From the NCBI RefSeq assembly GCF_007097205.2, contig NZ_VJYK02000013.1:1-37791 (forward strand): 37,791 nt of DNA, given 5' to 3'. The translations under genes and the position numbers were made by a program. Shown piece after piece: positions 1 through 35,457 of the stretch; positions within the stretch are counted from its first letter, which is position 1, and the number at the start of each line of letters is the position of its first letter. Source of the DNA: Streptomyces alkaliterrae (GTDB lineage: Bacteria > Actinomycetota > Actinomycetes > Streptomycetales > Streptomycetaceae). The notes beneath the pieces are model-generated. The model was not told the origin of the DNA, made no database searches, and saw only the letters and a program-made list of their open reading frames with translations.

Positions 1-1524
1 GGCCAACGCCCGCCCAGCATCCCCACCGCAACGAGCCACCACCGCAGCCCGAAACTCATGATGCTCCCGCCCCGTCTGCAACGTAAACGCCACATCAGAC
101 AGCCCACCCCCCTCAAACTCCGCCACACACTTCGCCAGCCGCACACGCTGACGAGACAACACATCCACCGACTTACCCGAAGTCACCAACACACCCCAAT
201 CAGCCACCGAATCAGCATCCGGCTCCACCTCAGGCGGCTGCTCCACAATCACATGCGCATTCGTACCCCCCATACCAAAAGAACTCACACCAGCCCGCCG
301 CGGCAAAGACCCCGACCACTCCCGCAACTCCGCGTTCACAAAAAACGGACTCGAGTCAAAATCAATCTCCGGATTCGGTCGCCGAAAATGCAAACTCGGC
401 GGAATCACTCCCCGCTCCACAGCAAGTACCGCCTTGATAAACCCGGCAATGCCTGCCGCAGTATCTAGATGCCCCACATTCGTCTTCACCGAACCCAACG
501 CACAGAACCCACGCCGCGACGTCGACACACGAAACGCCTCCGTCAACGCCGACACCTCAATAGGATCACCCAACGGCGTCCCCGTTCCATGCGCCTCCAC
601 ATAACCAATCGAATCCGCATCAACCCCCGCGACCTGCTGCGCCTCAAAGACAACACCCGCCTGACCCGCCACACTCGGAGCAGTAAAGCCCACCTTATCC
701 GCACCATCATTATTAACAGCAGACCCACGAATCACCGCACGAATCGCATCCCCATCACGCACCGCATCCGACAACCGCTTCAACACCACAAGTCCGACGC
801 CGCTACCTCCGACGGTGCCGCGCGCCTGCGCGTCGAACGCCCTGCAATGACCATCGGGAGAGAAGATGTTTCCCTCCTGGTACTGGTAGCCGCCGTACTG
901 AAGGACGTTGATCGTCGCCCCACCGGCGAGCGCCACATCGCATTCGAACTCAAGGAGGCTCTTGCACGCCTGATGGACCGAGACCAGTGAGGTGGAACAC
1001 GCCGTGCCGATCGTCATGCTCGGCCCGGTCAGGTTGAGACGGTGAGAGATCTGGGTGGCCGCGAAATCCTTATCATTGAAGAGAGATATCTGGCGGGCGA
1101 ATGATGACATCAGGTCCGTGCGCGGCAGCAGATGGTGGAGGAAGTATCCACTGCGCCCGATCCCAAGAAAGACGCCGGTCGTGCTCTCGCCACTCGCCGG
1201 GTCACAGCCCGCGTCCTCCAGGGCCTCGACAGCTACCTCAAGGAGGAACCGCTGCTGCGGATCCATGATCTCCGCCTCGCGCGGCGTGTACCCGAAGTAC
1301 GCCGCGTCGAAGTTCTCGATCCCGTCGAGAATTCCCGCCGCGCGTACAAGGTCGGGACTCGACAGAACCGTGGGGTCACTGTGGGCTGCAATGAGGTCGT
1401 CGTCACCGAGACGGGATATCGACTCCTTACCCCGAATGAGGCTCTGCCAGAACTCCTCGGCGTTCGCGGCTCCGGGAGCCCGCAGACCCATTCCGACAAC
1501 GGCAATGCTTCGATCGTCACTCAC
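1..1524 (-). CDS. Modular type I polyketide synthase, N-terminal KS domain (cut by window edge)
   Basis: The first 508 codons of a PKS whose remainder lies beyond base 1. The visible part is a ketosynthase, which performs decarboxylative Claisen condensation on an acyl chain, plus the start of the post-KS linker. The catalytic Cys is residue 176 (codon 999-997) in GTACSTSLVSVH. The two histidine motifs follow as EAHGTGTPLGDP (near base 590) and KTNVGHLD (near base 475), then SSFGMGGTNAH. The N-terminus reads MSDDRSIAVVGMGLRAPG with no separate docking helix. The start is GTG, sharing GTGA with the stop of the upstream NRPS, so translation is probably coupled. The residue before TAC is Gly where most modular KS have Asp. 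Codon usage switches abruptly near base 785: above it codons end mostly in C/G, below it T- and G-ending codons and TTG dominate, pointing to a recombinant KS. Certain as a KS; AT and later domains are not visible. Confidence 0.95.
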   Translation of the reverse strand, partial: MSDDRSIAVVGMGLRAPGAANAEEFWQSLIRGKESISRLGDDDLIAAHSDPTVLSSPDLVRAAGILDGIENFDAAYFGYTPREAEIMDPQQRFLLEVAVEALEDAGCDPASGESTTGVFLGIGRSGYFLHHLLPRTDLMSSFARQISLFNDKDFAATQISHRLNLTGPSMTIGTACSTSLVSVHQACKSLLEFECDVALAGGATINVLQYGGYQYQEGNIFSPDGHCRAFDAQARGTVGGSGVGLVVLKRLSDAVRDGDAIRAVIRGSAVNNDGADKVGFTAPSVAGQAGVVFEAQQVAGVDADSIGYVEAHGTGTPLGDPIEVSALTEAFRVSTSRRGFCALGSVKTNVGHLDTAAGIAGFIKAVLAVERGVIPPSLHFRRPNPEIDFDSSPFFVNAELREWSGSLPRRAGVSSFGMGGTNAHVIVEQPPEVEPDADSVADWGVLVTSGKSVDVLSRQRVRLAKCVAEFEGGGLSDVAFTLQTGREHHEFRAAVVARCGGDAGRALA

Positions 1525-4500
1525 CGATTACCTCCATTCCGTTCACCCATGGCCGCTCGGCGCCTTTCAAGACGACCCCGGACACCCGCGAAGGCCTGCT
1601 CGCTCTCCGTCCCAGATATGTGACGGGCCAGGGAGGCGATCGTCGGGTATCTATACAGATCGATCATGTTCAGTCTCTCGGGGTAAACGACCTTCAAGTG
1701 ACCGAAGACCCTGGCGAGCAGAATCGAATTCCCTCCGATATCAAAAAACCCGTCATCCGCTCCCGGTCGAGATACACCGAGGACCTCCGACCAGGCCGCG
1801 GCGATGGTCTTCTCGATCTCGTTCTCGGGTTTCCGGTAGGCGCGCTGCGCCCGCTCGGGTTCGGGAGAGGGCAACGCGGTCCAGTCGGCCTTTCCGTTGG
1901 GCGTGAGAGGGATGGCCGGCAGCTCAACGAACGCGGCGGGGGTCATGTACTCGGGGAGCGCCGCCCGGACCGCGGCCACGGCGTCTCCTCGGTCGAAGCC
2001 GTGTCCCTCTTCCATGACGACGTACGCCACAAGACGCCTGGTGCCCAGCTGGTCCTCACGCACAGCCGTCACCGCGTCACGGACACCCGTGATCTCCCGG
2101 AGCACCGCTTCTATCTCGCCCAGCTCGATCCGGAAGCCGCGCAGCTTGATCTGCCGGTCGTTCCGGCCGAGATACTCCAGTTCGCCGCAGGGGAGCCAAC
2201 GGGCCAGGTCCCCGGTCCGGAAGAGGCGTGCTCCAGGCCGTCCGCCGAACGGATCAGGGACGTAGCGCTCGGCAGTCAGCGACGGCCGGCGGTGGTACCC
2301 CTGGGAGACGCCGTCGCCTCCGAGGTAGAGCTCTCCAGCGATGCCGGTCGGCACGGGCCGCATCGCCGAATCGAGGACATAGGATTGCGCGTTCGCGATG
2401 GGACGCCCGATCAACGGCTTGGCGCCGTCCTCGGGGACGAGGGTGAACGTCGAGTACACCGTGTCCTCGGAGGGCCCGTACAGGTTGTACACCTTCCGCA
2501 CACCGTCTCGCGCGTGGAGCTGGTCAACGAGACCGCGCGGCAACGGCTCGCCCGCGAGGTTGACGACACGTACGCCTTCCGGCAGTCCGCCGAGGCGCAG
2601 CAGCGTGTCCATCGCGGAGGGGACCGTGTTCACCAGCGTCACCCGGTCACGCGCGGGCAGGGACGGAAGCAGGAGCGCGTTGTCGGCGAGGATGACGGTG
2701 GCTCCGGTGGTGAGTGGCAGGAAGAGCTCGAAGACGGAGAGGTCGAAGCAGATCGACGTCGAAGCGAGGGTCCCTTCGAGCTCGTCCGCGGAGAAGACCT
2801 CCTTCGCCCACATAAGGAGCGACACGACGTTGCGATGCGTGATCCGTACGCCCTTCGGCCTGCCGGTCGAACCCGATGTGTAGATCACCAGAGCGACCGA
2901 CTGCTCGTGCACGGCGGCATCGTCGGCCAAGGCGTCGGACCCGGCTGCCTCGTTCGCGCCCCCCTCCTCGTCCACCGCCAACAGCGGGGCCGACGAACGG
3001 GACAGCGCCGGGCGCGTCGACGCCTGCGCCAGCACCACGACCGGGGACGCGTCGCTGAGGATCCGGTCGATGCGCGACGGCGGGTAGGCGGGATCGAGCG
3101 GCACATACGCCGCGCCCGCCTTCAGCACGGCCAGCAGCGCCGCGGGCAGATAGGCGCCCCGGTCGAGACACACACCCACGAACGCCCCGGAGGTAACGCC
3201 CGCAGCCCGTAGCCGGCGCGCGAGCCGGTTCGCGTGTGCGTCGAGCTCCGCGTAGGTGAGCCGCACCTCACCGGCGATGACCGCCGTCGCATCGGGCGTC
3301 GCAGCCGCCTGCGCCTCGAAGAGCTCATGCACGGGGCGTTGTTCGTGATGACCGGCCCGGGTCCGGTTCCAGTCGACCAGCAGGCGTCGGGCCTCTTCCC
3401 CGGTCATGACCGGCAACTCGCCCAGCATGCTCGGCGCGGCGACTAGTCCGGAGAGGAGCACCTGGTAATGCTCCAGCATCCGTTCGACGGCGGCCCCCTC
3501 GAACCTGGCTTCGTCGAAGGCAATCTTGAGGGACATCCGCTCGCCGGGCACGACCGTCAAGGTGAGCGGGAAGCTCGTCTGCTCCGACGTCCGGATCGAC
3601 TCGACCCGTATCCCTCCGCCAGAGAGGTCGAGTGCCTTCCGTATAGGGAAGTTCTCGAACACCACCAGCGAATCGAACAACGGCACATCGCCCTGCACGC
3701 CAGCCCAGCGCCGGATCTCGGCGGGCGGAGCGTAGCCGTACTCCTCCCGTTCGGCCTGGGCCGCCTGGAGTCCGCGGAGCCAGTCGGCCACCGGCGCCTC
3801 GTCGTCGACGTGGACGCGCACGGGCAGCGTGTTGAGGAAGCACCCGACCATCGACTCCACACCGTTGACCGACGGAGGGCGGCCCGAGGCGACCATCCCC
3901 AGCAGGACGTCGCGTTCACCTCCGTAGCGGCGAAGCAGCAGCGCCCAAGCGCCCTGCACCAGCGTGCTCAGCGTGATCCGCTCACGGCGGGCCCCGTCTT
4001 GGAGGGCCGCAGTGGCCTCGCGTGAGAGCGTCACGCTGCGCTTGGCGATGCGGCCGGGGCCGGGGCGGCCCGCCGACGGCCGGTCCACGCCCAACGAGGT
4101 CGGCCCATGCACTCCGGCGAGCGACCGGCGCCAGTACTTCTCCGCCTCGGCAAGATCCTGCCCGCGCAGCCACGCTATGTACTCGCGGTACTGCACGGCC
4201 GGAGCGAGCGGTGCTGTTCCACCGCTCACCCGGGCCCGGTAGTGCTGCATGACCTCCGTCACCACGATCGGCATCGACCAGCCGTCGGAGATCGCGTGGT
4301 GGCGAGTCCAGAGGAACCGGTGACGGTCCTCCGATAGGCGCACCAGGAGGCAGCGCATCAACGGTGCGCGGGAGAGATCAAAATCATGCCCGCGGTCGTC
4401 CTCCATACGAGCATCGAACCGCCCGCGCTGCTCGTCGGCGCGCAGGGACGTCCAGTCCTCCTCCCGCCACGGAAGGTCGACCCGTCGGCGTACGACCTGC

Positions 4501-4730
4501 AGCGGACGGCTCTGGTCGAGCCTCATGAACAGGGTTCGATGGACGGCGTGCCGTGCCGTCACCTCGTCCCAGGCAGCGCGGAACGCATTCAGATCGAGGG
4601 GCCCGCAGACATCGAACGACAGCTGCACGACGTAGACACCGCTGTTCGGCGCGAGCTGCGAGGTGATCAGCATCGCGTGCTGGAGCGGCGACAGCGGATA
4701 GATAGCCTCAATGTCGTTCGTCCTGTTCAT
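1521..4730 (-). CDS. Nonribosomal peptide synthetase, one module C-A-PCP
   Basis: A 1069-residue single elongation module. The condensation domain opens with IEAIYPLSPLQHAML and carries HHAISDG (His144-Asp149). The adenylation domain has IYTSGSTGRPKG, FDLSVFELF, NLYGPSE, FRTGDLARW and the Lys in PNGKADW. The carrier domain has FFDIGGNSILLAR with the phosphopantetheine Ser at residue 1002. There is no thioesterase, so the chain passes on, by GTGA overlap, to the downstream KS. Pocket residues aligned by eye to the phenylalanine-activating GrsA read D-L-F-N-N-A-L-V-Y-(K). This resembles a pocket usually listed for alanine; substrate call moderate to low. The IYPLSPLQ opening often occurs in condensation domains taking a D-configured donor, which fits the epimerase ending the preceding protein, but that is inference. 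The ATG start lies 15 nt after the upstream stop. Confidence 0.95.
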   Translation of the reverse strand: MNRTNDIEAIYPLSPLQHAMLITSQLAPNSGVYVVQLSFDVCGPLDLNAFRAAWDEVTARHAVHRTLFMRLDQSRPLQVVRRRVDLPWREEDWTSLRADEQRGRFDARMEDDRGHDFDLSRAPLMRCLLVRLSEDRHRFLWTRHHAISDGWSMPIVVTEVMQHYRARVSGGTAPLAPAVQYREYIAWLRGQDLAEAEKYWRRSLAGVHGPTSLGVDRPSAGRPGPGRIAKRSVTLSREATAALQDGARRERITLSTLVQGAWALLLRRYGGERDVLLGMVASGRPPSVNGVESMVGCFLNTLPVRVHVDDEAPVADWLRGLQAAQAEREEYGYAPPAEIRRWAGVQGDVPLFDSLVVFENFPIRKALDLSGGGIRVESIRTSEQTSFPLTLTVVPGERMSLKIAFDEARFEGAAVERMLEHYQVLLSGLVAAPSMLGELPVMTGEEARRLLVDWNRTRAGHHEQRPVHELFEAQAAATPDATAVIAGEVRLTYAELDAHANRLARRLRAAGVTSGAFVGVCLDRGAYLPAALLAVLKAGAAYVPLDPAYPPSRIDRILSDASPVVVLAQASTRPALSRSSAPLLAVDEEGGANEAAGSDALADDAAVHEQSVALVIYTSGSTGRPKGVRITHRNVVSLLMWAKEVFSADELEGTLASTSICFDLSVFELFLPLTTGATVILADNALLLPSLPARDRVTLVNTVPSAMDTLLRLGGLPEGVRVVNLAGEPLPRGLVDQLHARDGVRKVYNLYGPSEDTVYSTFTLVPEDGAKPLIGRPIANAQSYVLDSAMRPVPTGIAGELYLGGDGVSQGYHRRPSLTAERYVPDPFGGRPGARLFRTGDLARWLPCGELEYLGRNDRQIKLRGFRIELGEIEAVLREITGVRDAVTAVREDQLGTRRLVAYVVMEEGHGFDRGDAVAAVRAALPEYMTPAAFVELPAIPLTPNGKADWTALPSPEPERAQRAYRKPENEIEKTIAAAWSEVLGVSRPGADDGFFDIGGNSILLARVFGHLKVVYPERLNMIDLYRYPTIASLARHISGTESEQAFAGVRGRLERRRAAMGERNGGNR

Positions 4731-4745: not shown

Positions 4746-7700
4746 CTAGCTCTCAAGTTCCTCAAGGAGGTCATCGAGCTCCTCCTGGGTCAGGTCGATG
4801 TCTGGGAAAGCAGATGGATCGACCCTTAGCCGACCCGTATGGCAGTCGTCGAGGACCTGCCGCACCGAGGCGGTGAACCGCGCGGCGAGTGCCTCGACGG
4901 TCTCCACGTCGTGCACGGCCTCGCTGAAGGTGAAGCTGATACGGAGCCGCCCGTCGGCCACGATTCCGTTGATGCTCAGCAGGTGCTTGCGCCGCTGCGC
5001 CGCACCGTGCGAGGCGCCGACAGAGTCCGTGGACAGTTCAAACATCGAGTCCGGCAGCCGTGAGGCGTCGGCCTGTCCCAGATAGTTAAAGACGATCTCC
5101 GCCTGGCTCCCCTGGGCCAGCAGGTCGCGAACCGACCGGTCCGGGGCCAGATGACGCAGCAGCCCGAATCCGACACCGCGCCTCGGGACACACCGCACCT
5201 GCTCCTTTACGGCCCGCAGCCCGTCGTCGCCGGCCGGCGAGTCGATGCGCAGCGGATACATCGCCGTGAACCAGCCAATAGTCCGCGAGATATCCACGTT
5301 GTCGAAGAGCTCCTCGCGGCCGTGCCCCTCCACATCGACGAGAAGTGATCGAGAGCCGGTCCACGGTGCGCACGCCTCGGCCAGTGCGTGGAGCAGCACC
5401 TCGTGCGCCTCGGTCCTGTGCATGGCGCGCACATCGCGTATCAGCGTGGTCGTCTCGTCGGCCGAGAGTTCCACGGTGACCGTCCGCGCTGTCGCCTCGG
5501 TGTTGGCCCCGTCCCGGTCGCGCGGCAGCGGCGCCGTCGGTGGCTCGACCTGGCGGGCCCAGTAGCCGAGTTCGGCCTGCGTCTCGTCGCCGGCCGCGTG
5601 TGCCTGGAGCCTCGCGGCCCACTCCTTGTACGAGGTGGTCTTCAGCGGCAGCAGCACGGGGCGGCCGTCGCGCAGCGCCTCGTAGCACGCCTGGAGGTCT
5701 TCCATGAAGACGCGCCACGAGATTCCGTCGACAACCGCGTGGTGGATGACTGTGTAGACCTGGGCCGGGCGCCGTCCGCCGTAGTCGATGTAGACCATGC
5801 GCAGCAGTGGCCCGTTCCGGAGGTCCAGGCCGCCCTGGATCCGTGCCTGCATCGCGGCGACCACCCCGGCCCAGGCCGGTTGCTGTTTGTCCGTCAGATC
5901 GAGGTGTTCGACCGGCTCACTCTTCTCCTCCGGTGCGCTCGTCCATTGGCGGACGCCGGCCGTGTCGTGGACGAAGCGGTTCCGTAGGGCGTCATGGTGG
6001 CGTACGACGGCGTCACGTGCCCGCGCCAGCAGGTCGAGGTCGAGCCCTCCCGTGGTGACGTCCACCAGTACGGCCTGGTTGTAGTGATGTGCGTCGGCGA
6101 GCTCCTGCTCGAAGAACCAGCGCTGGATGGGGGCCAGCTCCGCGTCGCCCAGGACCAGGCCTTGCTCCGCTCGCGGACCGGCTCCCTCCTTGGCCACCGC
6201 GGCGAGCTCGGCGAGCGTCTGGTGCTGGAACAGGTCGCGGGCGGAGAGGACGATCCCCGCCTTCTTCGCGCGCGAGACCATCTGGATCGCGATGATCGAG
6301 TCGCCGCCGAGCTCGAAGAAATTGTCATCCGCGGCGACTCGCGGCAGCCCCAGGAGCTCACGCCAGATTTGTGCCAGCCGTTCCTCGAGCCGCGTCCGCG
6401 GCGCCAGGAACGAGTTGGCCGGCCGCTGTTCGGCGAGTGGGTCTGGCAGGGCCTTGCGGTCCACCTTTCCACTGGGCAGCAGGGGCAGTGCGGGCAGTTC
6501 GGCGAACAGAGCGGGAACCATGTACCGCGGCAGCCGCTCCTCCAAGAGTCGGCGTGCCTGGGTGACGTCGAATCCGTCCGTCGCGACGACATAGGCGACG
6601 AGCCGCTTGCCGCCGCGCCCGTCGTCGTCCGCCACGACCACCGCCGTCCGAACACCCGGCGCGTCGGCGAGTGCCGACTCCACCTCGCCGAGTTCCACCC
6701 GGAAGCCGTTCACCTTGACCTGGTGATCGCGGCGCCCGATGAACTCCAGTTCACCGCCCGGCCGGTAGCGCACGATGTCACCCGTGCGGTACATCCGGGC
6801 CTCGACGTCCCCCGCGAAGGGGTCGGGAACGAACCGCTCGTCCGTGAGATCGGGCCGGTGGAGATAGCCGCGCGCGACGCCGTCGCCACCAATGCACAGT
6901 TCTCCGGGTATGCCGGCCGGGACCGGGTTGAGCCGTCCGTCGAGAACGTAGACCAGGGTGTTGGAGAGCGGGCGACCGATGGAGTTGTCGGCGCCGGTGA
7001 CGGGGTGGCTGGTCGACCAGATCGTCGCCTCGGTCGGACCGTAGAGGTTGAGCACCTGGCCGCCGACGGTCGCGGACAGCGTCCCGGCCAGCGCGGGCGG
7101 CAGCGCCTCACCGCCGACGAGCATCCAGTCCAACTCGCGTAGAGACCGTCGTGCGTCGTCGTCGGCGACCAGAAGTGCGGCGAGCGACGGTGTGCACTGC
7201 AGATGCGTCACCCCGTGGAGCTCGATGAGCCCGGCGACGTCCTCGCGCGGCGCCTCCCCGGGGACCGGCAGAACGGTAGTCCGGCGCAAGGTGTCGAGAT
7301 GCTCGAAACTCGCCAGCACTTCCTCCGTACCGACGCCGAAGTCGATGAGACAGGCGATTTCGTCCACCCCCGTCTCGCGAAGCCGGCCGACGAACGACGC
7401 ACACTGCTCCGGAGTGCCGAAGAGCCCGCTGTCGCCGTAGTAGCGATCAAACGCGTGGTCGAGGAGCGCGTCGAGATCCGTCTCCTCGAGGTCTTCCAGT
7501 TCCAGTCCACGCGAGCGGGCGATGGGACGCACGAGTTCGACGGACTCGCGCAGGTAGTTCTTGAACGGTTCACGCACGGTCCGTCGGACGAACTCCTCGT
7601 CGTCCGACACGAACGTGTGGAGCATCAACGTGACATGCCCTTCGCCGGCATGCCCCGCCTCCCGCCGGGCGGTGCGGTACACGTCGAGCGAAATCGCCAG

Positions 7701-10700
7701 GTCCTCCGCCGACTGCCCGAGCAGGTGGGTCAGCAGGCTGGCGCCGACGGCACCGGCGCGACGGAACGTCTCTGGGTTGCCCGCCGCCGTGATCCAGACG
7801 GGCAGCTCCGGCTGCACGGGGCGGGGCAGCGTCCGTACCTCGATGTCGTCGCCGGTTCCCGAGACCGTCCGTACTGCCTCGCCGCGCCAGAGTTTCCGTA
7901 CGACGTCGAGATCGCGGAACATGATCTCTTTGCGGTCGGCGAAGTTCTCCGGCGCGAGGGCGAAGTCGTGGGGCTGCCAGCCCGAGGCGACCGAAAGCCC
8001 TACTCGCCCGCCGGACAGGTTGTCGATCACCGCCCAGTCCTCGGCGACCCGGAGGGGGTTCTGCAGCGGGAGCACGAGGCTTCCGGCGCGGATTCCGATC
8101 CGGCTCGTGCAAGCGGCGACGGCGGCGGCGGTGATGCCCGGGTTCGGATAGAGCCCGCCGAACGTTCCGAAGTGCCGCTCCGGTGTCCATACCGCCGCGA
8201 AACCATGCTCGTCGGCCCAGCGTGCCCCGTCGAGCAGCATGCGGTACTTGTCCGTCCCGCGCTCGCCGGCGTCGCTCGCGAAGTAGAACAGGCTGAAGTC
8301 AACAGCCCTGTCGGAGCCGCGTCTCCGGGCATCGCTCAGCACCAGCTCCTCGCCGACGAGTACAACCTTGAAGCCGCGTGTCAGGGTCCACAGCAGCTCC
8401 AGGACCGAGATGTCGAAGGTGTAGTGCGTCAGCGCGAGCCAGGTGCCCGGCGTGGAGCCGCCGAGGCGCTGGTCCATGGCGGCGAAGAACCCTGCCAGGT
8501 TCCGCTGCGCGACCATCACGCCCTTGGGGCGGCCGGTGGATCCCGACGTGTAGATCACGTAAGCCAGGTGGTCGGGGCGGAGGGCCCGGACCGGCGAGGA
8601 TCCGTCCGCGTCGGCGTCCGTCTCCGGGGCGATGAGCTCGACACCGTCCGGCAGCTCCGCCAAGCGGGCCGTCGGGGCGACCACGAACCGCAGCCTGGTG
8701 TCCTCGATCATGTACGCGATCCGGTCGACGGGAGCGCCGGGGTCCATCGGAACGTATGCGCCGCCCGCCTTGAGCACTGCGAGCATAGCGACGACCATCT
8801 CGACCGACCGCTCGGTCCACAGGCCGACGATGACGTCCTCCATGACGCCCCTCGACCGCAGGATCCGCGCCAGTCGGTTCGCCTCCCGGTCGAGTTCGCC
8901 ATAGGTGAGCGAGCGGTTCCCGAACACCAGTGCCGTGGCCTGGGGGGTGGCCTTCGCTCGCGCCTCGAAAGCATCGGCGACGAACAGCTCATCGGTCCGA
9001 GCGACGTAGTCCCGGTTCCAGTCGGAAAGGACGAGCTCCCGCTCCGGCTCACCTAGGAAGGTGAACTCGCCTATTCGGGTCGCCGGTTCGCGGACGATGG
9101 CCCGGACCAGCTCCGTGAAGTGGTCGACCAGTCGCTCGATCGTCGCGGCGTCGAAGAGATCCGTGCGGTACTCGACGCGCCCCGTCAGCCCCTCGTCGTT
9201 CTCGACCAGGTCGACGGTGAGATCGTACTTCGCGACGCTTCCCGGCAGAGCCAGCGGCTCGATCCCGAGACCGTCCATGTCGAGCCCGTCGCCGGGCGCG
9301 GTCTGGTAGACGAAGAGGGCTTGGAAGAGCGGCGTGTGTCCGGGGTCCCGCGGCGGATTCAGCGCCTCGACGAGGCGTTCGAACGGGAGATCCTGATGTG
9401 TCTGCGCGGCGAGCGTCACCTCACGCACCCGCCCGAGCAGTTCCTCGAAGGACGGGTCCCCGGACAGATCGGTCCGGATCACCAGCGTATTGAAGAAGCA
9501 ACCGACCAGTGCCTCGGCCTCGGCGCGCGTACGGTTCGCTATGGGCGTGCCGACCGCGATGTCCTCCTGGCTCGAGTAGCGCGACAGCAGGACGTTGACC
9601 GCGGTGAGCAGCGCCATGAACATCGTGGACTGCCGTTCTCCGGCAAGCGCGCGCAGCGCATCCGTGGTGGTCCGGTCAAGGGTGATCGGGACGGTCGCTC
9701 CCTCGATCCCCTGGACGGCGGGCCGGGGCCGGTCGGTGGGGAGGTTCAGCAGGGCCGGCAGCCCGCGGAGTTGCTCCGTCCAGTACTCCAGCTGCGGACG
9801 GATTCCGTCGGTTTCGAGCCACTGGTTCTGCCAGGAGGCGAAATCGGCGTACTGGATCGCCAGCGGCGCGAGCGGAGAGGGCTGGTCCGCCCGGAACACC
9901 CTGTACAGCGTCACGATCTCCTGCCAGAGTACGGCGGTCGACCAGCCGTCGGAGACGATGTGATGCAGGCACAGAAGCAGTACGTGCTCCTCGGGTGCGA
10001 CGCGCAGAATCTCTGCCCGGAACAGCTCGTCGCGCTCCAGGTCAAAGGGCCGCGCCGCGAAGGCCTGGGCCCTGGACAGCACATCCGGAGCGGGGACGTC
10101 GAGCACCGGCACGTCGACGGCCGACGCCTCGCGGACGATCTGCGCGGGAACACCGTCCACCGTCGCGAAGTTCGTGCGGAGCGCCTCATGGCGGCGCAGC
10201 ACCTCACTCAGCGCGCGTACCAGGCAGGCGGTGTCCAGGGGACCGCTGATACGAAAGGAGGCGGGGATGTTGTAGGCGGCGTTCGCGCCGTCGACCTGGG
10301 TGAGCACCCAGATACGGCGCTGTGCGTACGACAGGGGCAGCGGTCCGGAGCGCTCGATCGGCGTGATCGTGTCATCCGCGTCCGCCTTGCACGCCGCGCG
10401 CTCGTCGTCGATCAGTTCGGCCAGCTGCGCGACCGTGGAGGACTCGAACAGGGTGGCGACCTGAAGCGCGACCTTGGTGGCTGCCCGCACACGGGCGACA
10501 ACGCGAGTGGCCCCCAGCGAGTTGCCGCCAAGCGTGTGAAAGAAGTCGTCGTGCACACCGACCTTCTCGCAGCCGAGGATGTCCGCCCAGACCTGCGCGA
10601 GCAGGCTCTCCGTTTCCGTACGCGGCGCGACATGGCTCGCAGTCCTGGACGCGTCGGGGTCCGGCGCCGGCAACGCCCGCCGGTCCACCTTCCCGTTCGG

Positions 10701-13487
10701 AGTCAGCGGCAGAACCGGCAGCACGACGAGGGCGGTTGGCACCATGTAGTCGGGCAGCTGAGCTCGCAGCCGCTCCGTGAGCTCGGCGGGCGGCAGGTGG
10801 GCGCTGCGGCGGGCGACGATGTACGCCGCGAGGTAGGGGTCAGCGCCGTCGGAACGTACGACGGCCACGGCATCGCTCACACGCTCGCCGCGCAGGAGCG
10901 TCGCCTCGATCTCGCGGAGCTCCACCCGGTGCCCACGGATCTTCACCTGCTGATCGGCGCGGCCCAGGAACACGACGGCGCCGTCCGGCCGCTGCCGGAC
11001 CAGGTCGCCCGTGTGGTACATGACCGCACCGGGCTCGTCAGTGAAGGGGTCGGGAAGGAAGCGCTCAGCCGTCGCGCCGCGCTGCCCCTCGTAGCCGCGC
11101 GCGACGCCGGAGCCCCCGATGTACAGCTCTCCGGGCGCGCCTTCCAGCACGGGGCGCAGCTTCTCGTCCAGGACGTAGGAGCGGTAGTTCGGGAGCGGGC
11201 GCCCGATGGGCACCTGGCCCGTGGTCCCGTCCGCCACCGTGAGCGTGAGAGCACCGACGGCCGTCTCGGTCGGCCCGTAATGATTGACGACGCGCAATCC
11301 GGGACGCAGTTTCCGCACCCGCTCCACCAGGGACGCCGGAAGCTCCTCTCCGCCGAACACCAGGCAGGTGCTGGGCAGCAGCTCGGCCGCGTCCTCGGCG
11401 TCGAGCAGCGCAGCGAGATGCGAAGGGACGATCTTGAGCATGTCCACGGGCTGCTCGCGGAAGCGGCGGACCAGTGCGTCGGCCGCCAGGACTTCGTCCG
11501 GCGCGGCGAGGAACAGCGACCGGCCGGTGCACAGGGCGCCGAACACCGCGGTGTGACCGAGGTCGGCCGCGGTGGTCGCCAGCGTGCCCAGCACGGCGTC
11601 CTCGGGCAAGGCGAACTCCGGTACGACGCCTGCGACGTAGTTGCCTACGGCGCGGTGCGGCACACCGACCGCCTTGGGGCGGCCCGTCGATCCCGAGGTG
11701 AAGATGAGGTAGGCGAGGTGGTCCGGGCGGACGTCCACGGCGGGCGGCGCGTCCGGCAGCGGGTCCGGCTCCACGGCATCGTCGAGGTCGAGCATCGGAA
11801 TCCCGTGTGGCGTCACGGGACCGGTCAGACCACTCCCGGTGAGGAGCGCCGCCGGGTGCGCGTCCTCGATCATGCGGGTGAGCCGGGCGGCAGGCAGGGA
11901 CGGATCGAGGGGGACAAACGCGCCGCCCGCCTTGAGGACGGCGAGCAGGCCGACGACGTATTCGAGGGAACGCTCGGTCATCAGCCCGACGGGCACATCC
12001 GGCCCGACCCCCCGCGCCCGCAGAGCGTGCGCGAGCCGGTTCGCCCTGCGCTCGACCTCGCCGTACGTCAGGCGGCGGCCTCCGCACACGGCGGCGAGCG
12101 CCTCGGGCCGTTCCGCTGCCCAGCGCTCGAAACGCGCGTGAACGAGCTGGGGCTCCGGGTGCAGCCGCCGCTCACCGGTGCCCTGCGCGAGAACACGCGC
12201 GGTCTCCTCCTCGTCCGCCAGCCCGATGTCGCCGACCGGTGCGTCGGGATCGGCCACGACGGCACGGACGACGGAAGCGAGCTGACCGGCGATCCGTTCT
12301 GCGTGCCGAGCCGATACTCGCCGCACGTCGTGTACGACGCCCAGGGTGAGTTCATCCTGTGCTCCCTGAACCACGTCGAGGTGGAGGAGCGACCCCGCCG
12401 GTGAGACGACGAGACCCTCCATGGCCAGGCGCCGTCCGCCGGCGCGCACCTCCGCCGGCAACTCGGTTCGGGCGAAGGTGAAGGGCACCGGCTCCGTCGT
12501 CCGCGTCCCGTCGAAGGAGAACTGATCCACGGGCGCTTCGGCCCACGCCTCGTCGAGGTCCTTGGCGAGGGCCGCGAACGCCCGCGCCGGCTCCATGACA
12601 GTGAGCAGCGGGACCGGGCTCTCGAAGTTCCCCACCACGTCCTGGAGTTCGTCCAGACCCCGGGACGTGGAGAGGAGGGCGGTCACCATCCGCTCCTCGC
12701 CGGTCAGCCGCCACAACAGCACCTGCCAGGCTCCGAGCAGAACCGCCGTGACCGAACAGCGGATCCGAGTCGCCAAGTGTCCCACCGCCGCGGCGGCCGG
12801 GCCGTCGAGAGGTACACGCACCGCCGCGGAGCCGGCACCCGTTCCGGGCTCGAAGGGCGTGAGCAGCCGCGCCGCAACGGCGAGTTCCTGGCCGAGCCAT
12901 GCGTCCATCCGGGCCCGTGCCTCGTCGCTGCCAGTCTGCTCGTGCAGCCACTCCGCCGCGTCCAGGTACTGCAGCGACACCTCGTCCTGGGTGCGTCCCC
13001 CGAGTGCGGCAGCGAGGTCCTCGAAGATCACGGCGAGCGACCGGCGGTCGACGAACACTCCGGAGGCCGTCAGCACGAGGACGGCCCGGTCGGAGCCCAA
13101 CATGAGGCGGGCACGGACCGCGCCGCCGTCCGAGCTGCCGTCGGAGGGCGCGCGGACGTCGGCGTCGGCCGCCCGGTCGACTGCCTCGGCCGCGGCGAGG
13201 GCATCGCCCGGGAGAACGTCGTCGATCCATTCCGGCTCGCCGCTGTCGTCCACCAGCTGCAGCGGCGTCGCCAGGCCGGGTACCGGGACGAGCCGTGAGC
13301 GCAACGACTCATGACGCTCAATCACCGATTGAACGGCGCGCAGGACCTCGGAGCGGTGCGTCGGTCCCTCCATCGCGATGCGGCACTGTGCCCGGCGCTC
13401 GGCGGAATGCGACCACGCTTGGAGCTGCGGCGGCGAAAGCCGGAAGCCGACCATCGGAGAACTGTCAAAATCCGCGGCGTCGTTCAT
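4746..13487 (-). CDS. Two-module NRPS: condensation-like(non-catalytic)-A(Asp)-PCP-C-A(Gly, split by LLM oxygenase)-PCP-E
   Basis: A 2913-residue synthetase. Residues about 1-430 are condensation-like, but the HHxxxDG site is replaced by ASGVFVDRRSL (near 140), so it cannot condense. Adenylation domain 1 (about 445-940) has AADLGHTAV and pocket D-L-T-K-V-G-H-V-G-(K), almost the aspartate code of surfactin synthetase; PCP Ser990. A catalytic C domain follows (HHIVSDG, His1175). Adenylation domain 2 is interrupted after FDISVLELLW (near 1690) by a luciferase-like flavin monooxygenase (about 1728-2065, DFSLFYFASD, WTPERHF, SGWQPHDF) and resumes at THLQCTPSL. Its pocket D-I-L-Q-L-G-L-I-W-(K) is the classic glycine code. 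PCP Ser2397 is in LGGDSIIAIQ. The C-terminal epimerization domain has HHAVVDGISW (His2582) and EGHGRE (near 2720). Asp activation matches the TauD oxygenase on the preceding protein. An epimerase after a Gly module is odd unless the monooxygenase makes a chiral carbon. Confidence 0.95.
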   Translation of the reverse strand: MNDAADFDSSPMVGFRLSPPQLQAWSHSAERRAQCRIAMEGPTHRSEVLRAVQSVIERHESLRSRLVPVPGLATPLQLVDDSGEPEWIDDVLPGDALAAAEAVDRAADADVRAPSDGSSDGGAVRARLMLGSDRAVLVLTASGVFVDRRSLAVIFEDLAAALGGRTQDEVSLQYLDAAEWLHEQTGSDEARARMDAWLGQELAVAARLLTPFEPGTGAGSAAVRVPLDGPAAAAVGHLATRIRCSVTAVLLGAWQVLLWRLTGEERMVTALLSTSRGLDELQDVVGNFESPVPLLTVMEPARAFAALAKDLDEAWAEAPVDQFSFDGTRTTEPVPFTFARTELPAEVRAGGRRLAMEGLVVSPAGSLLHLDVVQGAQDELTLGVVHDVRRVSARHAERIAGQLASVVRAVVADPDAPVGDIGLADEEETARVLAQGTGERRLHPEPQLVHARFERWAAERPEALAAVCGGRRLTYGEVERRANRLAHALRARGVGPDVPVGLMTERSLEYVVGLLAVLKAGGAFVPLDPSLPAARLTRMIEDAHPAALLTGSGLTGPVTPHGIPMLDLDDAVEPDPLPDAPPAVDVRPDHLAYLIFTSGSTGRPKAVGVPHRAVGNYVAGVVPEFALPEDAVLGTLATTAADLGHTAVFGALCTGRSLFLAAPDEVLAADALVRRFREQPVDMLKIVPSHLAALLDAEDAAELLPSTCLVFGGEELPASLVERVRKLRPGLRVVNHYGPTETAVGALTLTVADGTTGQVPIGRPLPNYRSYVLDEKLRPVLEGAPGELYIGGSGVARGYEGQRGATAERFLPDPFTDEPGAVMYHTGDLVRQRPDGAVVFLGRADQQVKIRGHRVELREIEATLLRGERVSDAVAVVRSDGADPYLAAYIVARRSAHLPPAELTERLRAQLPDYMVPTALVVLPVLPLTPNGKVDRRALPAPDPDASRTASHVAPRTETESLLAQVWADILGCEKVGVHDDFFHTLGGNSLGATRVVARVRAATKVALQVATLFESSTVAQLAELIDDERAACKADADDTITPIERSGPLPLSYAQRRIWVLTQVDGANAAYNIPASFRISGPLDTACLVRALSEVLRRHEALRTNFATVDGVPAQIVREASAVDVPVLDVPAPDVLSRAQAFAARPFDLERDELFRAEILRVAPEEHVLLLCLHHIVSDGWSTAVLWQEIVTLYRVFRADQPSPLAPLAIQYADFASWQNQWLETDGIRPQLEYWTEQLRGLPALLNLPTDRPRPAVQGIEGATVPITLDRTTTDALRALAGERQSTMFMALLTAVNVLLSRYSSQEDIAVGTPIANRTRAEAEALVGCFFNTLVIRTDLSGDPSFEELLGRVREVTLAAQTHQDLPFERLVEALNPPRDPGHTPLFQALFVYQTAPGDGLDMDGLGIEPLALPGSVAKYDLTVDLVENDEGLTGRVEYRTDLFDAATIERLVDHFTELVRAIVREPATRIGEFTFLGEPERELVLSDWNRDYVARTDELFVADAFEARAKATPQATALVFGNRSLTYGELDREANRLARILRSRGVMEDVIVGLWTERSVEMVVAMLAVLKAGGAYVPMDPGAPVDRIAYMIEDTRLRFVVAPTARLAELPDGVELIAPETDADADGSSPVRALRPDHLAYVIYTSGSTGRPKGVMVAQRNLAGFFAAMDQRLGGSTPGTWLALTHYTFDISVLELLWTLTRGFKVVLVGEELVLSDARRRGSDRAVDFSLFYFASDAGERGTDKYRMLLDGARWADEHGFAAVWTPERHFGTFGGLYPNPGITAAAVAACTSRIGIRAGSLVLPLQNPLRVAEDWAVIDNLSGGRVGLSVASGWQPHDFALAPENFADRKEIMFRDLDVVRKLWRGEAVRTVSGTGDDIEVRTLPRPVQPELPVWITAAGNPETFRRAGAVGASLLTHLLGQSAEDLAISLDVYRTARREAGHAGEGHVTLMLHTFVSDDEEFVRRTVREPFKNYLRESVELVRPIARSRGLELEDLEETDLDALLDHAFDRYYGDSGLFGTPEQCASFVGRLRETGVDEIACLIDFGVGTEEVLASFEHLDTLRRTTVLPVPGEAPREDVAGLIELHGVTHLQCTPSLAALLVADDDARRSLRELDWMLVGGEALPPALAGTLSATVGGQVLNLYGPTEATIWSTSHPVTGADNSIGRPLSNTLVYVLDGRLNPVPAGIPGELCIGGDGVARGYLHRPDLTDERFVPDPFAGDVEARMYRTGDIVRYRPGGELEFIGRRDHQVKVNGFRVELGEVESALADAPGVRTAVVVADDDGRGGKRLVAYVVATDGFDVTQARRLLEERLPRYMVPALFAELPALPLLPSGKVDRKALPDPLAEQRPANSFLAPRTRLEERLAQIWRELLGLPRVAADDNFFELGGDSIIAIQMVSRAKKAGIVLSARDLFQHQTLAELAAVAKEGAGPRAEQGLVLGDAELAPIQRWFFEQELADAHHYNQAVLVDVTTGGLDLDLLARARDAVVRHHDALRNRFVHDTAGVRQWTSAPEEKSEPVEHLDLTDKQQPAWAGVVAAMQARIQGGLDLRNGPLLRMVYIDYGGRRPAQVYTVIHHAVVDGISWRVFMEDLQACYEALRDGRPVLLPLKTTSYKEWAARLQAHAAGDETQAELGYWARQVEPPTAPLPRDRDGANTEATARTVTVELSADETTTLIRDVRAMHRTEAHEVLLHALAEACAPWTGSRSLLVDVEGHGREELFDNVDISRTIGWFTAMYPLRIDSPAGDDGLRAVKEQVRCVPRRGVGFGLLRHLAPDRSVRDLLAQGSQAEIVFNYLGQADASRLPDSMFELSTDSVGASHGAAQRRKHLLSINGIVADGRLRISFTFSEAVHDVETVEALAARFTASVRQVLDDCHTGRLRVDPSAFPDIDLTQEELDDLLEELES

Positions 13488-13532: not shown

Positions 13533-21559
<8,027 letters not shown>

Positions 21560-21563
<4 letters not shown>

Positions 21564-24500
21564 GAGCCCTGCCTCCTGCGCTGCCGCTGCCGGAAGGCAG
21601 CCTTCTGCCTACTCGCCCGGCTCTCGACGCCTGCGCTCAGCTTCTCGTCGGCGTTCTCACCGCCCGCACTGATGTGCGCCGCGAGCCCGGCGATGGTCGG
21701 AAAAGTGAACAGGTCGACCAGTTCGATGCGGCCCAGTCCCGCTGTGGTGATGTGCGAGTGCATCCTTGCGGCCAGTAGCGAATGGCCGCCGATCTCGAAG
21801 AAGTTTTCGTGGACACCCACCCCTTCGCGTTCGAGGAGTGCCTGCCAAATCTGCTGGAGAGCGTGCTCGATCTGGTTGCGTGGCGCCAGGTGCGTGGCGG
21901 TCCCACCGCCCTTGACCTCGTCCGCCATCCTGACGAGCGCACCGCGGTCGACCTTTCCGTTGAGTGTCAGCGGCAGGCTCTCCACCGGGACGATGCGCGA
22001 CGGCACCATGTAGTCGGGCAGCTGGCCGCGGGCGTGGGCGCGGATTCCCGCCTCGTCGTAGGCCATGCCCTCGCGCGGCACGGCGAACGCGACGAGAGCA
22101 GTGTCGCCGTTCCGGTCCGGCCGGGCGACCACGGTGCAGTTCGCTAGCGCCGGGTGCCCGTCGAGTACGGTCTCAATCTCACCGAACTCGATGCGGAAAC
22201 CGCGCACTTTTACCTGGTGGTCAGCGCGGCCGAGGAACTCGAACCTGCCGCCGCCTAGCGGTCGGACAACGTCCCCGGTGGCGTACATCCGGCTTCCGGG
22301 CCGGTCGGTCAGCGGATCGGGAAGGAATCTCTCCGCGGTCAACGCGGGCCTGTTCCAGTACCCGCGCCCTACGCCGTCCCCACCGATATACAGCTCGCCG
22401 GGAACCCCGACCGGTACCGGCCGGAGCTGCGCGTCGAGGACGTACAGCGTGGTGTTGGGCAGGGCTCCGCCGACCGTCGCGCGGTCGTACCGGTCGGGCT
22501 CAAGCCGTTGCACCGCCGACCAGACGCATGTCTCCGTGGGTCCGTACATGTTGAGGACGTCACCGATACCGGAGTCGCACAGCCGCGAGGTGAGCTCCGG
22601 CGGAGAGGCGTCCCCGCCGACGAGGAGGGTGCGCAGGGTGCTGACCGCCGGAGGCTGGCCGTCCCGGTCGAGGAGCAGAAGACGGGCGAAGGCCGGCGTG
22701 CACTGCAGGTGCGTGACCCCGTACCGCGTGATCACCTCCGTCGGCGTACGAGACGGCCGGGCATGAGCGTCTTTCATCGCCTGTTTGACGGCCTCAATGT
22801 TCCCGAGCGCATCGAGTACCAGGTCGTCGGGGACGCCGAAGTCGATGAGACAGGCGATCTCGTCCACTCCGGCCCCGGCCACTGCGCGGACGAGGTCGGC
22901 ACAGGATTGCGGGGTCCCGAACAGCGCGCTGGTACTGGAGTACCGCTCAAAAGCGTGATCGACGATCACTTCGCGGTCACGTACGGGGTCGAGCCCCAGG
23001 CCCCTGGCCAGTCCCCGCATCAGGTCGATCGAGCTGCGCAGGTACGCCTTGAACGGCTCGCGCACGGCCTCTCGCACGATCTCCGCGTCCGGGTGGACGA
23101 AGGTATGCAGCATCAGGGTCACGACTCCTTCGTCATGCCCGGCGGCTGCCCTCGCGGCCCGGTAGATGCCGATCTTGCGGGTCAGCTCTTGGACGTTCTG
23201 GCCCAGTAGGTGCGTGAGGAGGTTGGCGCCGGTCGCACCGGCCCTGCGGAAGGTCTCGTCGCTGCCGGCGGCGGTCGCCCACACCGGGAGTTCCGCCTGG
23301 ACAGGACGCGGGAGCGTCCACACGTCGATATCGGAGCCGACGCCGTTACGCCGCGAGACGGACTTCCCTGCCCAGAGCCGCCGGACGACCTCGATGCCAT
23401 CCCACAGGGACTCCTTGCGCGTGGTGTAGCCGTCCGGAGCGAGCACGAAGTCGTCGGGCTGCCACCCGGAGGCGAACGACAGGCTGACGCGCCCGTCCGA
23501 CAGGTTGTCGACCACGGCCCACTCCTCCGCGACCCGCAGCGGGTCCTGCAGGGGGAGAACGACGCTTCCGGCACGGATCTCAACCCTGTCCGTCGACGCC
23601 GCGACGGCGCCCGCGAGGACGGAAGGATTCGGGTAGGCGCCGCCGAAGGCGTGGAAGTGCCGCTCCGGGACCCAGACGGCCCGGAATCCGTGCGTGTCCG
23701 CGAAACGGGCTCCCTCCAGGAGCAGACGGTAGAGGTCCTTCCCTTTACTCTCCCCGGAGTCGGCGGCGAAGTAGAAGAGGCTGAAGTCGACCGGGCGCGT
23801 CGGCGTCCGCGTCTCCGGGACGGCCGCCACGGCGGCCGGGGAAGTCCACAGGGCGGGCTCGATGACAACCTTGTAGCCACGGCACAAGGTCCAGAAGAGT
23901 TCGAGTATGGAGATGTCGAAGGACACGCTTGTCACGGCCAGCCATACGGGCTGCTCCGCGCCGGGGCGGTCCTGCCCGGGGTGAGGTCCACTCCCCACCG
24001 CGCGATCGAGGCCTTCGAACAGGTTGATGACATTGCGCCGGCTCACCATCACACCCTTGGGGCGACCGGTCGAGCCCGAGGTGTAGATGACGTAGGCGAG
24101 CGCCTCAGCGGAGCCTTCGCAGGGCGGGGCGGGTGACAGCCTCTCCGCCTCCTCTGCGAGGGCGCTCAGAGTCAGGACGTCACCCTCGTACGACCTGAGG
24201 GCGCGGCCTCCCTGGTCATCTACCACGCAGAAGTCCACCAGCGCGTCCTGCGCCATGTACGCGAGGCGATCCGGCGGATAGGACGGGTCCAACGGAACGT
24301 GGGCGCCACCGGCCCGCGCGATGGCGAGCATGACCACAACCAGCGCCGCCGAGCGCTCCAGGCTCACTCCGACGCGCGCTTCCTCCCGTACGCCCCGCTC
24401 ACGCAGTACTGCGGCCAGCCGGCCGACCCGGTCGGCGAGTTGTCGGTAGGTGAGCGACTCCTCGTCAGAGACCAGCGCCGTGGCATGCGGGGTCCGCAGC

Positions 24501-26077
24501 ACCTGCGCGTCGAACTGTTCGAGCCAGGTCCGGCCGTTGACGGGGAGCTGCGGACCACGTGCGTCGCGAAGCAACGCCCGTCGCTCCGCCATGGACATCG
24601 AGGGGAGCGAGGAGATCCGGGCGTCGGGACGTACGGCGATCTCGTCCAGCATCGCGACAAAGCCCTGCGCGAGGCGTTCGACCGTGGCCACCTCGAACAG
24701 GTCGGCGTTGTACGTCCATGTGCAGACGTAGCGCCCGTCCACCTGGTGCACCGAGAGCACGATGTCGAACGGTGCGCCGCGCTGTCCCGACGAGGGCAAC
24801 ACGTCCAGCGGAACCTCCTGCCCCGAGGTTTCCGCCTGCTGCCAGACGTACATCACCTGGAAGAACGGTGGACGGCTCGGATCGCGCGGAGGGCTGAGGC
24901 GCTCGACGAGAAGCGGGAACGGATAGGGATGGTCAAGGGCGCGCAGAAGTGTCGAGCGGGTTCTGCCGAGGATGTCGCTGAACTCCGGGTCCCCGCGCAG
25001 GTCGCTTCGTACGACGACCGGGTCGGTGAAGAATCCGACCAGGTCCTGGGAGCCCGGGGCCCGGCGCCCGGAGGCCGGCGTGCCCACGGCCACATCATCC
25101 GAGCCGCTGTACTTCTGCAGCAGCACCTGGAACGCGGAGAGGAAGAGCATGTTCGGCGTCGCGTCGGCGTCACGCGCGCTCCGGGTGAGCCGCTCCGAGA
25201 GCGTGGAGTCCACCGTGACCGGGAGACGGCCGCCGCGGAAGGTCTGGGCGGGCCGACGCGGCCGGTCGAACGGCAGATCCATCACCGTAGGACTACCCCC
25301 GAGCCGCTCTCGCCAGAATGCGAGGTTCCGCTCCGCTTCCGGCCCGGCGAGCCACGCCTGCTCACGGCGTACATGCTCCACGAACCGCGCCGCGACAGGC
25401 TTCAGCGTCGGCTCCTCTCCCGTGGTGCGAGCACGATAGACAGCCAGCCACTCGTCGACGATCACATCGATCGACCAGAGGTCCGCCACGATGTGATGGA
25501 CGACGACCACCAGAACGGGCCGTTCGTCCCCCGGTCCAGTGCGCAGCAGCAACGCCCTGATGGGAAGCTCACGTTCAAGATCGAAGGGGGCGTCCATGAA
25601 CGCTTCCACAGCGCGCTCGACCCGATCCTCCGGTGCGGCCTCCTCTGTGAGGAACCGGGACGGTACGCCGCAGGGGCTCTGAGTCGGCTCGCCGTCCCCC
25701 CAGGTGAATACGGTCCGCAGGGCCTCATGGCGTCCCAGCACCTCCCGGAACGCCGCGTCGAGTTCTTCCGCGTCTATCGCACTCCGGGCGCGGGCGGCGA
25801 AGGCGAGGTTGTAGGCCGCGCTGTCCGGCGTCAGGCGCTGGTGCAGGAGAAGGCTCTGCTGGCCGACGGTGAGCGGGTACGGACCGGTCGGCTCGTACCC
25901 CCGGTGTTCCAGGAATGCCTCAACCTCCTCCCTGTTCGCGCGCACCACGGCGAGGACGTCGGGCGTAAGCGCGGCGCGCGGCCCCCCACACTGCAGGCGG
26001 CCGTCCTCGATGAACACTCGTACGCCCTTCGAGGCGAGTGAACCGATCAGCTCGGAGATGCCGTCAGGCCCCTTCAT
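21560..26077 (-). CDS. NRPS, TubC docking-C-A(Gly, split by LLM oxygenase)-PCP
   Basis: A 1505-residue module and the probable first peptide-forming enzyme. Residues 1 to about 55 form a TubC-type N-terminal docking domain (SELIGSLASKGVRVFIEDG, then LTPDVLAVVRANREEVEAFL). The condensation domain has HHIVADLW (His194-Asp199), with Leu replacing the usual Gly after Asp. The adenylation domain contains IYTSGSTGRPKG and FDISILELFW (near 720). It is interrupted by a luciferase-like monooxygenase at about 760-1095 (DFSLFYFAADSG, WVPERHFHAFGG, SGWQPDDF) and resumes with THLQCTPAF and NMYGPTE. Pocket residues D-I-L-Q-L-G-M-V-W-(K) indicate glycine. The PCP Ser1433 is in FFEIGGHSLLAAR. Likely role: N-acylation of glycine with the fatty acid from the FAAL-ACP and oxidation of the tethered glycine. 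The closest precedent I know is the oxygenase within the Gly adenylation domain of myxothiazol MtaG. Start ATG has AAGG just upstream. Confidence 0.95.
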
Positions 26078-27357: not shown

Positions 27358-27397
27358 CGCGGTCAGCACTCCATGGTGTCGGGCGTACCCCGGCTCA

Positions 27398-35387: not shown

Positions 35388-35457
35388 CCCGACACCCGGC
35401 ACTCGCTCCCAGCACAGACCCCTGGGTTCACACCTCCGCGTAGAAGAAAGGCCCACC

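Follow-up and report, generated by a model that had tools for sequence, protein, structure and literature searches.

Glycine is achiral, so an epimerization (E) domain behind a glycine-activating module would be chemically meaningful only once the residue has been made chiral. This is the question raised by P0001, a 2913-aa protein of Streptomyces alkaliterrae in which a module that is coded for glycine and carries an embedded monooxygenase (LLM) ends in an E domain. Here, we address it by a sequence analysis of the window, i.e., the whole stretch of 37,791 nucleotides of contig NZ_VJYK02000013.1. The NRPS/PKS genes of the window are all on the minus strand, to which the coordinates below refer unless noted, and the order of assembly runs from a fatty-acyl-ligase-like protein via P0004, P0002, P0001 and P0003 to P0005. 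The line likely starts with the former, a protein that by eye resembles a fatty-acyl-AMP ligase with a carrier domain (27398-29404). It is followed by P0004 (TubC_N-C-A(Gly)-LLM-PCP; 21560-26077), P0002 (KS-AT-MT-KR-ACP-C-TauD; 13533-21563), P0001 (C*-A(Asp-like)-PCP-C-A(Gly)-LLM-PCP-E; 4746-13487), P0003 (C-A-PCP; 1521-4730) and P0005, the KS of the following PKS, which is cut at the contig end (1-1524). P0001 opens with a C-like domain without HHxxxDG (C*; 12198-13454), which may belong to the interface-like C family; it precedes A1 (10668-12131), the code of which, DLTKVGHVG, we take to be Asp-like, while a TauD-type dioxygenase domain (13569-14450) closes the preceding protein P0002. The pairing of C* and TauD may point to the formation of beta-hydroxy-Asp, with C* in the role of an interface-like C domain. 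Further along, ABC-transporter-like genes are flanked by two proteins similar to each other by eye (26215-27369, minus strand, and 35329-36594, plus strand); a Pfam search gave no match for either.

The second module of P0001 begins with a C domain (9036-10340) that has an intact HHIVSDG motif and lies outside the clade of C domains that follow E domains (post-E clade). In A2, the LLM (7284-8297) is inserted between A4 (FDISVLE, aa 1691), which ends the N-terminal part (8304-8990), and A5 (NLYGPTE, aa 2147) in the part comprising A5-A10 (6453-7274). Read across the insertion, the two parts together give the code DILQLGLIW; we take this code, and DILQxGxxW in general, to mean glycine, and A2 is accordingly predicted to activate glycine. 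The published MOx domains, as described in the parts of PMC11342130 and PMC10204066 considered here, also sit in glycine A domains, in line with this meaning of the code. The insertion scores 493 bits as TIGR04020 (MupA/Atu3671 LLM family; curated cut-off, 244), a family also mentioned in PMC8739492. Then follow the PCP (6183-6392), which reads LGGDSII, and the E domain (aa ~2445-2905; 4773-6155).

As originally predicted, this E domain is intact. It scores 115 bits for TIGR01720 (cut-off, 74) and has the HHxxxDG, EGHGRE and NYLG motifs of NRPS epimerization domains, namely HHAVVDGISW (aa 2582-2591; 5715-5744), EGHGRE (aa 2720-2725; 5313-5330), GWFTAMYP (from aa 2738) and NYLGQ (from aa 2801). 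Presumably, the catalytic His is the second of HHxxxDG, as is the convention, and thus His2583 rather than His2582. A tree of 271 C and E domains places the P0001 E domain in a single clade together with 97 further E domains, and the solved chains nearest to it in sequence, i.e., PvdL, tyrocidine synthase 2, bacitracin synthase 3 and gramicidin S synthase 1, are all NRPS chains containing E domains. The junctions between PCP-E and D-type C domains in PvdL, TycA-TycB and BacC are sequence relatives of the window's E and next C domains; they act on chiral residues and have no embedded monooxygenase. The residue directly after HH (P0001 aa 2584) is A or T in the LLM+E orthologs (four rows) and in no other matched E domain; it is L in 53 of 63 matched E domains. 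The carrier is also of the kind found before E domains: GGDSI is present in all six LLM+E rows, which represent four distinct modules, versus none of the 70 LLM rows without E in which the motif is readable (it is unreadable in a further 25 of these 95 rows); three of the 70 carry DSL. Among plain modules, GGDSI/V precedes E in 85 of 85 A-PCP-E rows (80 I, 5 V). Because GGDSI also occurs in 17 of 69 plain A-PCP rows with something other than E next, the motif is only supporting evidence as a marker of E.

How common is this arrangement? Domains were called by phmmer with the window's domains as references, on stop-to-stop frames rather than gene calls, and codes were read for 360 A domains (window, L042-L161, L182-L194 and L225-L264). 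LLM-bearing A domains without E have Gly-type codes in 90 of 95 cases, orthologs included (82 DILQxGxxW and, counted with them, eight DIVQLGMVW); the LLM+E modules have DILQLGLIW in the window, DILQLGVIW in genomes G384 and G747, and DILQLGMIW in Komarekiella. The window itself holds such a module without E: P0004 has a Gly-coded A domain with an LLM (22787-23785), and the next protein opens with a KS. The two LLMs are sisters in a clade of seven (support, 0.955), and P0004 is thus a built-in comparison inside one line.

The complete order A(Gly)-LLM-PCP-E was found in three clusters, i.e., in the window, G384 (65% identity over the A-PCP-E part) and G747, which is Saccharothrix sp. ST-888 (70% over 1174 aa). 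The P0005-related PKS of G384 (L043, 3-8321, plus strand; 65% identity over 441 aa of the KS) is encoded on the opposite strand and has three carriers and a TE at its end. TIGR04020 is present above the cut-off in 155 of 391 genomes of the order; among 40 regions of up to 20 kb, hand-chosen from the listed places, only G384 has an E domain after an LLM module. Similarly, among 80 loci kept of at least 588 matched stretches, some of which stop before the position where E would begin, only Komarekiella (L089) has the start of an E domain after A-LLM-PCP. Here, A(Gly)-LLM-PCP is followed by the N-terminal ~60 residues of an E domain (61 bits against E, 18 against the best C), and the contig then ends; a search for the remainder did not place it. 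The Komarekiella LLM is outside the clade of seven, so that LLM and E were probably paired on two occasions or brought together by shuffling. Among the matches listed for the 195 genomes around Komarekiella, a further six begin within the LLM; five of these reach only as far as the carrier, and one ends before it. With a composite LLM-A-PCP-E query, 22 of 394 genomes of the class matched at E <= 1e-140, and only the window matched at full length; G384 is absent from the 22, presumably because it was not drawn into this sample. G540 and Archangium, near-full composites by score, were rejected as A-LLM-PCP-C. No E domain was seen after the 95 other LLM-bearing A domains, some of which are cut short. 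Several survey rows are orthologs or one module seen twice (L188/L192 and L089/L190), and misses are possible in genome surveys in which first looks score few candidates per genome. In several phyla, loci including L082, L086, L092, L093 and L099 encode proteins of ~1500-1600 aa with A(Gly-type)-LLM-PCP, the N-terminal ~550 aa of which have no match to the C references used. In the open-licence literature on hydroxyglycine and NRPS epimerization, as far as its text was covered, we found no description of A-LLM-PCP-E; nor did we find in the open-licence literature an epimerization domain acting on achiral glycine in a nonribosomal line. Altogether, the A(Gly)-LLM-PCP-E arrangement is real, conserved and rare.

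That the arrangement goes beyond chance is borne out by the E domains of the two orthologous clusters, which are 64% identical to that of the window over all of its 461 positions and keep the catalytic motifs. Using NG86, dN/dS of E is 0.41 against G384 and 0.40 against G747, compared with 0.28/0.26 for the C domain of the module, 0.27-0.31 for the parts of A2, 0.51/0.39 for its PCP, 0.12/0.15 for the LLM and 0.56/0.54 for C*. For the KR of P0002 (aa 1609-1745), which is 41% identical between the orthologs and, judged from its sequence, probably inactive, dN/dS is 0.71/0.76. The value of 0.40 for E exceeds those of the C and A domains of P0001 and P0003 (0.25-0.33) and is only indicative of activity because NG86 is crude and dS is mostly 0.5-1; with dS reaching 1.7 in these comparisons, we rejected dN/dS as a clean test. 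We also abandoned strict motif patterns as a test for a dead E domain in favor of alignment columns; the patterns are too strict, both being matched in only 60 of 100 full-length E domains. Of 61 reference columns, each shared by 90% or more of 95 other E domains (median kept, 60), the window keeps 53, G747 56 and G384 57. Because the window's count is lower than in all but two of the 95 (50 and 51) and near that of degenerate E domains (49-50), the argument rests on which columns are kept and not on how many. The columns of HH, D145, S148, W149, EGHGRE, GWFT and NY show no loss in the three orthologs, and the losses elsewhere are mostly hydrophobic swaps, the exceptions being L142 to A/T, P245R in the window and R323H in G747.

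Plain glycine modules serve as controls for reading this conservation, and they disprove the idea that E follows Gly only in LLM modules: three cluster types without an embedded LLM have E after Gly, i.e., G182/G252/G156, G274 and G046/G057. The first type is skyllamycin-like, an assignment based on code order and module count (11 modules in G182) and on residue meanings of the codes that we assume. In the E domain after Gly4 of these three clusters, H141R turns HH into HR, G279, H280, T299 and N359 are changed, EGHGRE is broken, and Y360 is also lost in two of them; dN/dS of this domain is 0.50-0.59 in the three pairs, while it is 0.23 and 0.16 for the G182/G252 E domains after Trp-like and Leu-like codes. 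The E domain of G274 is even more degraded (36 of 61 columns). Thus, E domains after plain Gly in skyllamycin-like clusters have lost the catalytic His and EGHGRE, whereas the window keeps both, a contrast that speaks for chemistry in the latter. The residue types and the 11-residue class of the skyllamycin-like assignment agree with the portions of PMC13194151 and PMC12502043 consulted.

G046 and G057 differ from the two degenerate types. Their E domains after plain Gly are intact (58 and 59 of 61 columns, respectively; dN/dS, 0.32); L300 (G057) and L301 (G046) each show plain Gly, an intact E and a D-type next C without an embedded LLM. The best TIGR04020 match of G046 has an E value of 7e-42, which is below the cut-off, while the genome of G057 has a match at 1.9e-120; as the contigs are only 13 kb, a trans oxygenase could be encoded elsewhere. 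These intact domains are the strongest result against an obligate oxygenase-epimerase link. Among 30 loci sampled as best matches to the Gly A domain of G274, and therefore biased because this domain itself precedes E, 17 have plain DILQxGxxW; the next domain is C in 11, E in four (two degenerate and two intact) and not visible in two. The available description of epoxinnamide likewise indicates, by inferred module order, a plain Gly module 4 with E and an alpha-hydroxyglycine module 8 without E (PMC9321520). Together with the LLM-less clusters, epoxinnamide module 4 argues that E after Gly is by itself no sign of alpha-oxygenation. In all four Gly+E cluster types, i.e., the window, skyllamycin-like, G274 and G046/G057 (the cut Komarekiella module was not counted), E stands at the C-terminus, and a D-type C is the first domain of the protein that follows. 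After other residues, E is C-terminal in 16 of 82 classifiable cases and internal in 66 (one cut case was not counted).

The next C domain was predicted to be of the D-donor type, and the phylogeny agrees. The C domain of P0003 (3402-4709), in which IYPLSPLQ starts at aa 10, has its best solved relatives by sequence in the C domains of the McyB, PvdL, surfactin, bacitracin and tyrocidine synthases; the clade of 80 (support, 0.987) to which it belongs also takes in every one of the 71 post-E C domains, six others and the two orthologs. By comparison, all eight C domains after A-LLM-PCP without E are outside this clade. However, this clade also includes the C domains that follow a Gly-E, whether degenerate (G182, G252 and G274) or intact (G046/G057). 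A D-type C domain in this position therefore does not prove that the donor is chiral, and we rejected this argument; the type shows the ancestry of the E-C junction. The A domain of P0003 (1866-3320) has the code DLFNNALVY, which we take to be Ala-like. In G182/G252, the standalone LLM scores above the TIGR04020 cut-off, the presumably hydroxylated Gly9 module is without E, and the C domain after it is outside the post-E clade. An ordinary C domain at this position is consistent with the consulted part of PMC9321520, in which the configuration of such residues is reported as (S), the L-like one.

We infer the site of oxygenation, turnover by E and the final configuration in the P0001 module as follows. 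A2 would load glycine, and the C domain of P0001 would join it to the preceding Asp-type residue; the embedded FMN-type monooxygenase would hydroxylate the alpha carbon on the PCP, giving an alpha-hydroxyglycyl thioester with a stereocentre. Through exchange of the alpha proton, E would equilibrate this stereocentre, and of the two isomers the D-donor-type C domain of P0003 would pass on the D-like one. By the priority rules, L-like is S and D-like is R for alpha-hydroxyglycine. Relatives without E, of the skyllamycin type, would keep the (S), L-like isomer and be followed by an ordinary C domain. With stereochemistry as in Sky39, the product of the LLM would be (S), and E and the D-type C domain would deliver (R). 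We see an even chance that the LLM alpha-hydroxylates Gly, probably to S, and that E and the D-type C domain select R. The original prediction of a stereocentre made by the monooxygenase and set by E thus gains from the Gly code, the LLM score above the cut-off, the intact E, the D-donor-type next C and the recurrence in three clusters; what does not stand is the use of E after Gly alone as a sign of alpha-oxygenation.

The known glycine-module oxygenases bear on what the LLM does. TIGR04020 membership rests on the LLM of the skyllamycin-like clusters, while MtaG, MelG, SolF and Sky39 are compared by description; MtaG and MelG we take to be the A-MOx-PCP proteins of myxothiazol and melithiazol. 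The skyllamycin-like clusters resemble the window in having a TIGR04020 LLM and a Gly-coded module that keeps the residue in the chain, but their LLM is a separate protein, and the Gly9 module lacks E and has an ordinary next C. In the passages of the papers considered, MtaG/MelG, like P0001, have a flavin monooxygenase between A4 and A5 of a glycine A domain, and this MOx hydroxylates C-alpha (PMC10204066, PMC11342130); the carbinolamide is then cleaved to the amide with release by a TE (PMC10204066), whereas in the window E, C-A-PCP and KS follow. SolF of solanimycin gives alpha-hydroxyglycine (PMC10204066, PMC11342130) and, like P0001, combines a glycine module with an in-cis flavin monooxygenase, the product staying in the chain; its insertion is between A8 and A9, and no E is mentioned in the passage concerned (PMC10204066). 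Sky39 makes (S)-hydroxyglycine, and the (S) configuration is reported in skyllamycin and dolyemycin and proposed in epoxinnamide (PMC9321520). Alpha-hydroxyglycine is described as rare in peptides and prone to cleave into an aldehyde and an amide (PMC10204066).

Among the alternatives, the most serious is a docking role, in which E persists as part of a subunit junction, having come from a chiral module along with its PCP and partner C; the LLM alone would then set the configuration, or E would be without chemical consequence. The terminal position of E and the D-type C opening the next protein in all four Gly+E types, compared with 16 of 82 otherwise, make it a serious rival, as does the persistence of E in two types despite lost catalytic residues. 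Relic-like E domains lose these residues, however, while the window type keeps them across 36% divergence, and we consider the docking explanation on its own rather unlikely. A junction role is likely at least in part, with the window type combining it with an intact active site. We think it quite improbable that the LLM oxidises N, giving N-hydroxyglycine or an imine, or that alpha-hydroxylation ends in cleavage as in myxothiazol, with E idle in either case. For the necroxime line, the text considered proposes that a glycine primer becomes an oxime through an oxygenase domain of the first modules (PMC7318616), but glycine is no primer in P0001, where the intact C domain (HHIVSDG) precedes it, and the glycine-module oxygenases described in the parts of PMC11342130, PMC10204066 and PMC9321520 consulted act on C-alpha. 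For cleavage, the A4-A5 MOx in myxothiazol/melithiazol offers a precedent (PMC10204066, in the part cited above); P0001 has neither a TE nor a chain end, and with P0003 and the PKS following, cleavage of the chain is unlikely. Finally, specificity codes are predictions, and A2 could load a chiral amino acid on which E does ordinary work; given DILQLGLIW in the window, DILQLGVIW in both orthologs and Gly-type codes in all but five of the 95 other A domains that carry an LLM, we regard this as very improbable.

We return to the reading in which E acts on an alpha-hydroxyglycyl residue. The broader claim that oxygenase and epimerase form one unit is plausible for this cluster and does not extend to an obligate link, because both alpha-hydroxyglycine modules checked, i.e., epoxinnamide module 8 by inferred order and the presumably hydroxylated Gly9 of G182/G252, are without E. 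It is a tentative proposal, to which we give somewhat less than an even chance, that P0001 represents an E domain with a dedicated alpha-hydroxyglycine substrate made in cis, in a line delivering (R) versus (S) in the published pathways considered here, and that this pairing arose twice. As a practical rule, when an E domain follows a glycine code, its catalytic residues should be inspected before a D-residue or a modification is predicted. If true, a module that both forms alpha-hydroxyglycine and fixes its configuration would offer a way of controlling the stereochemistry of hemiaminals in peptides.
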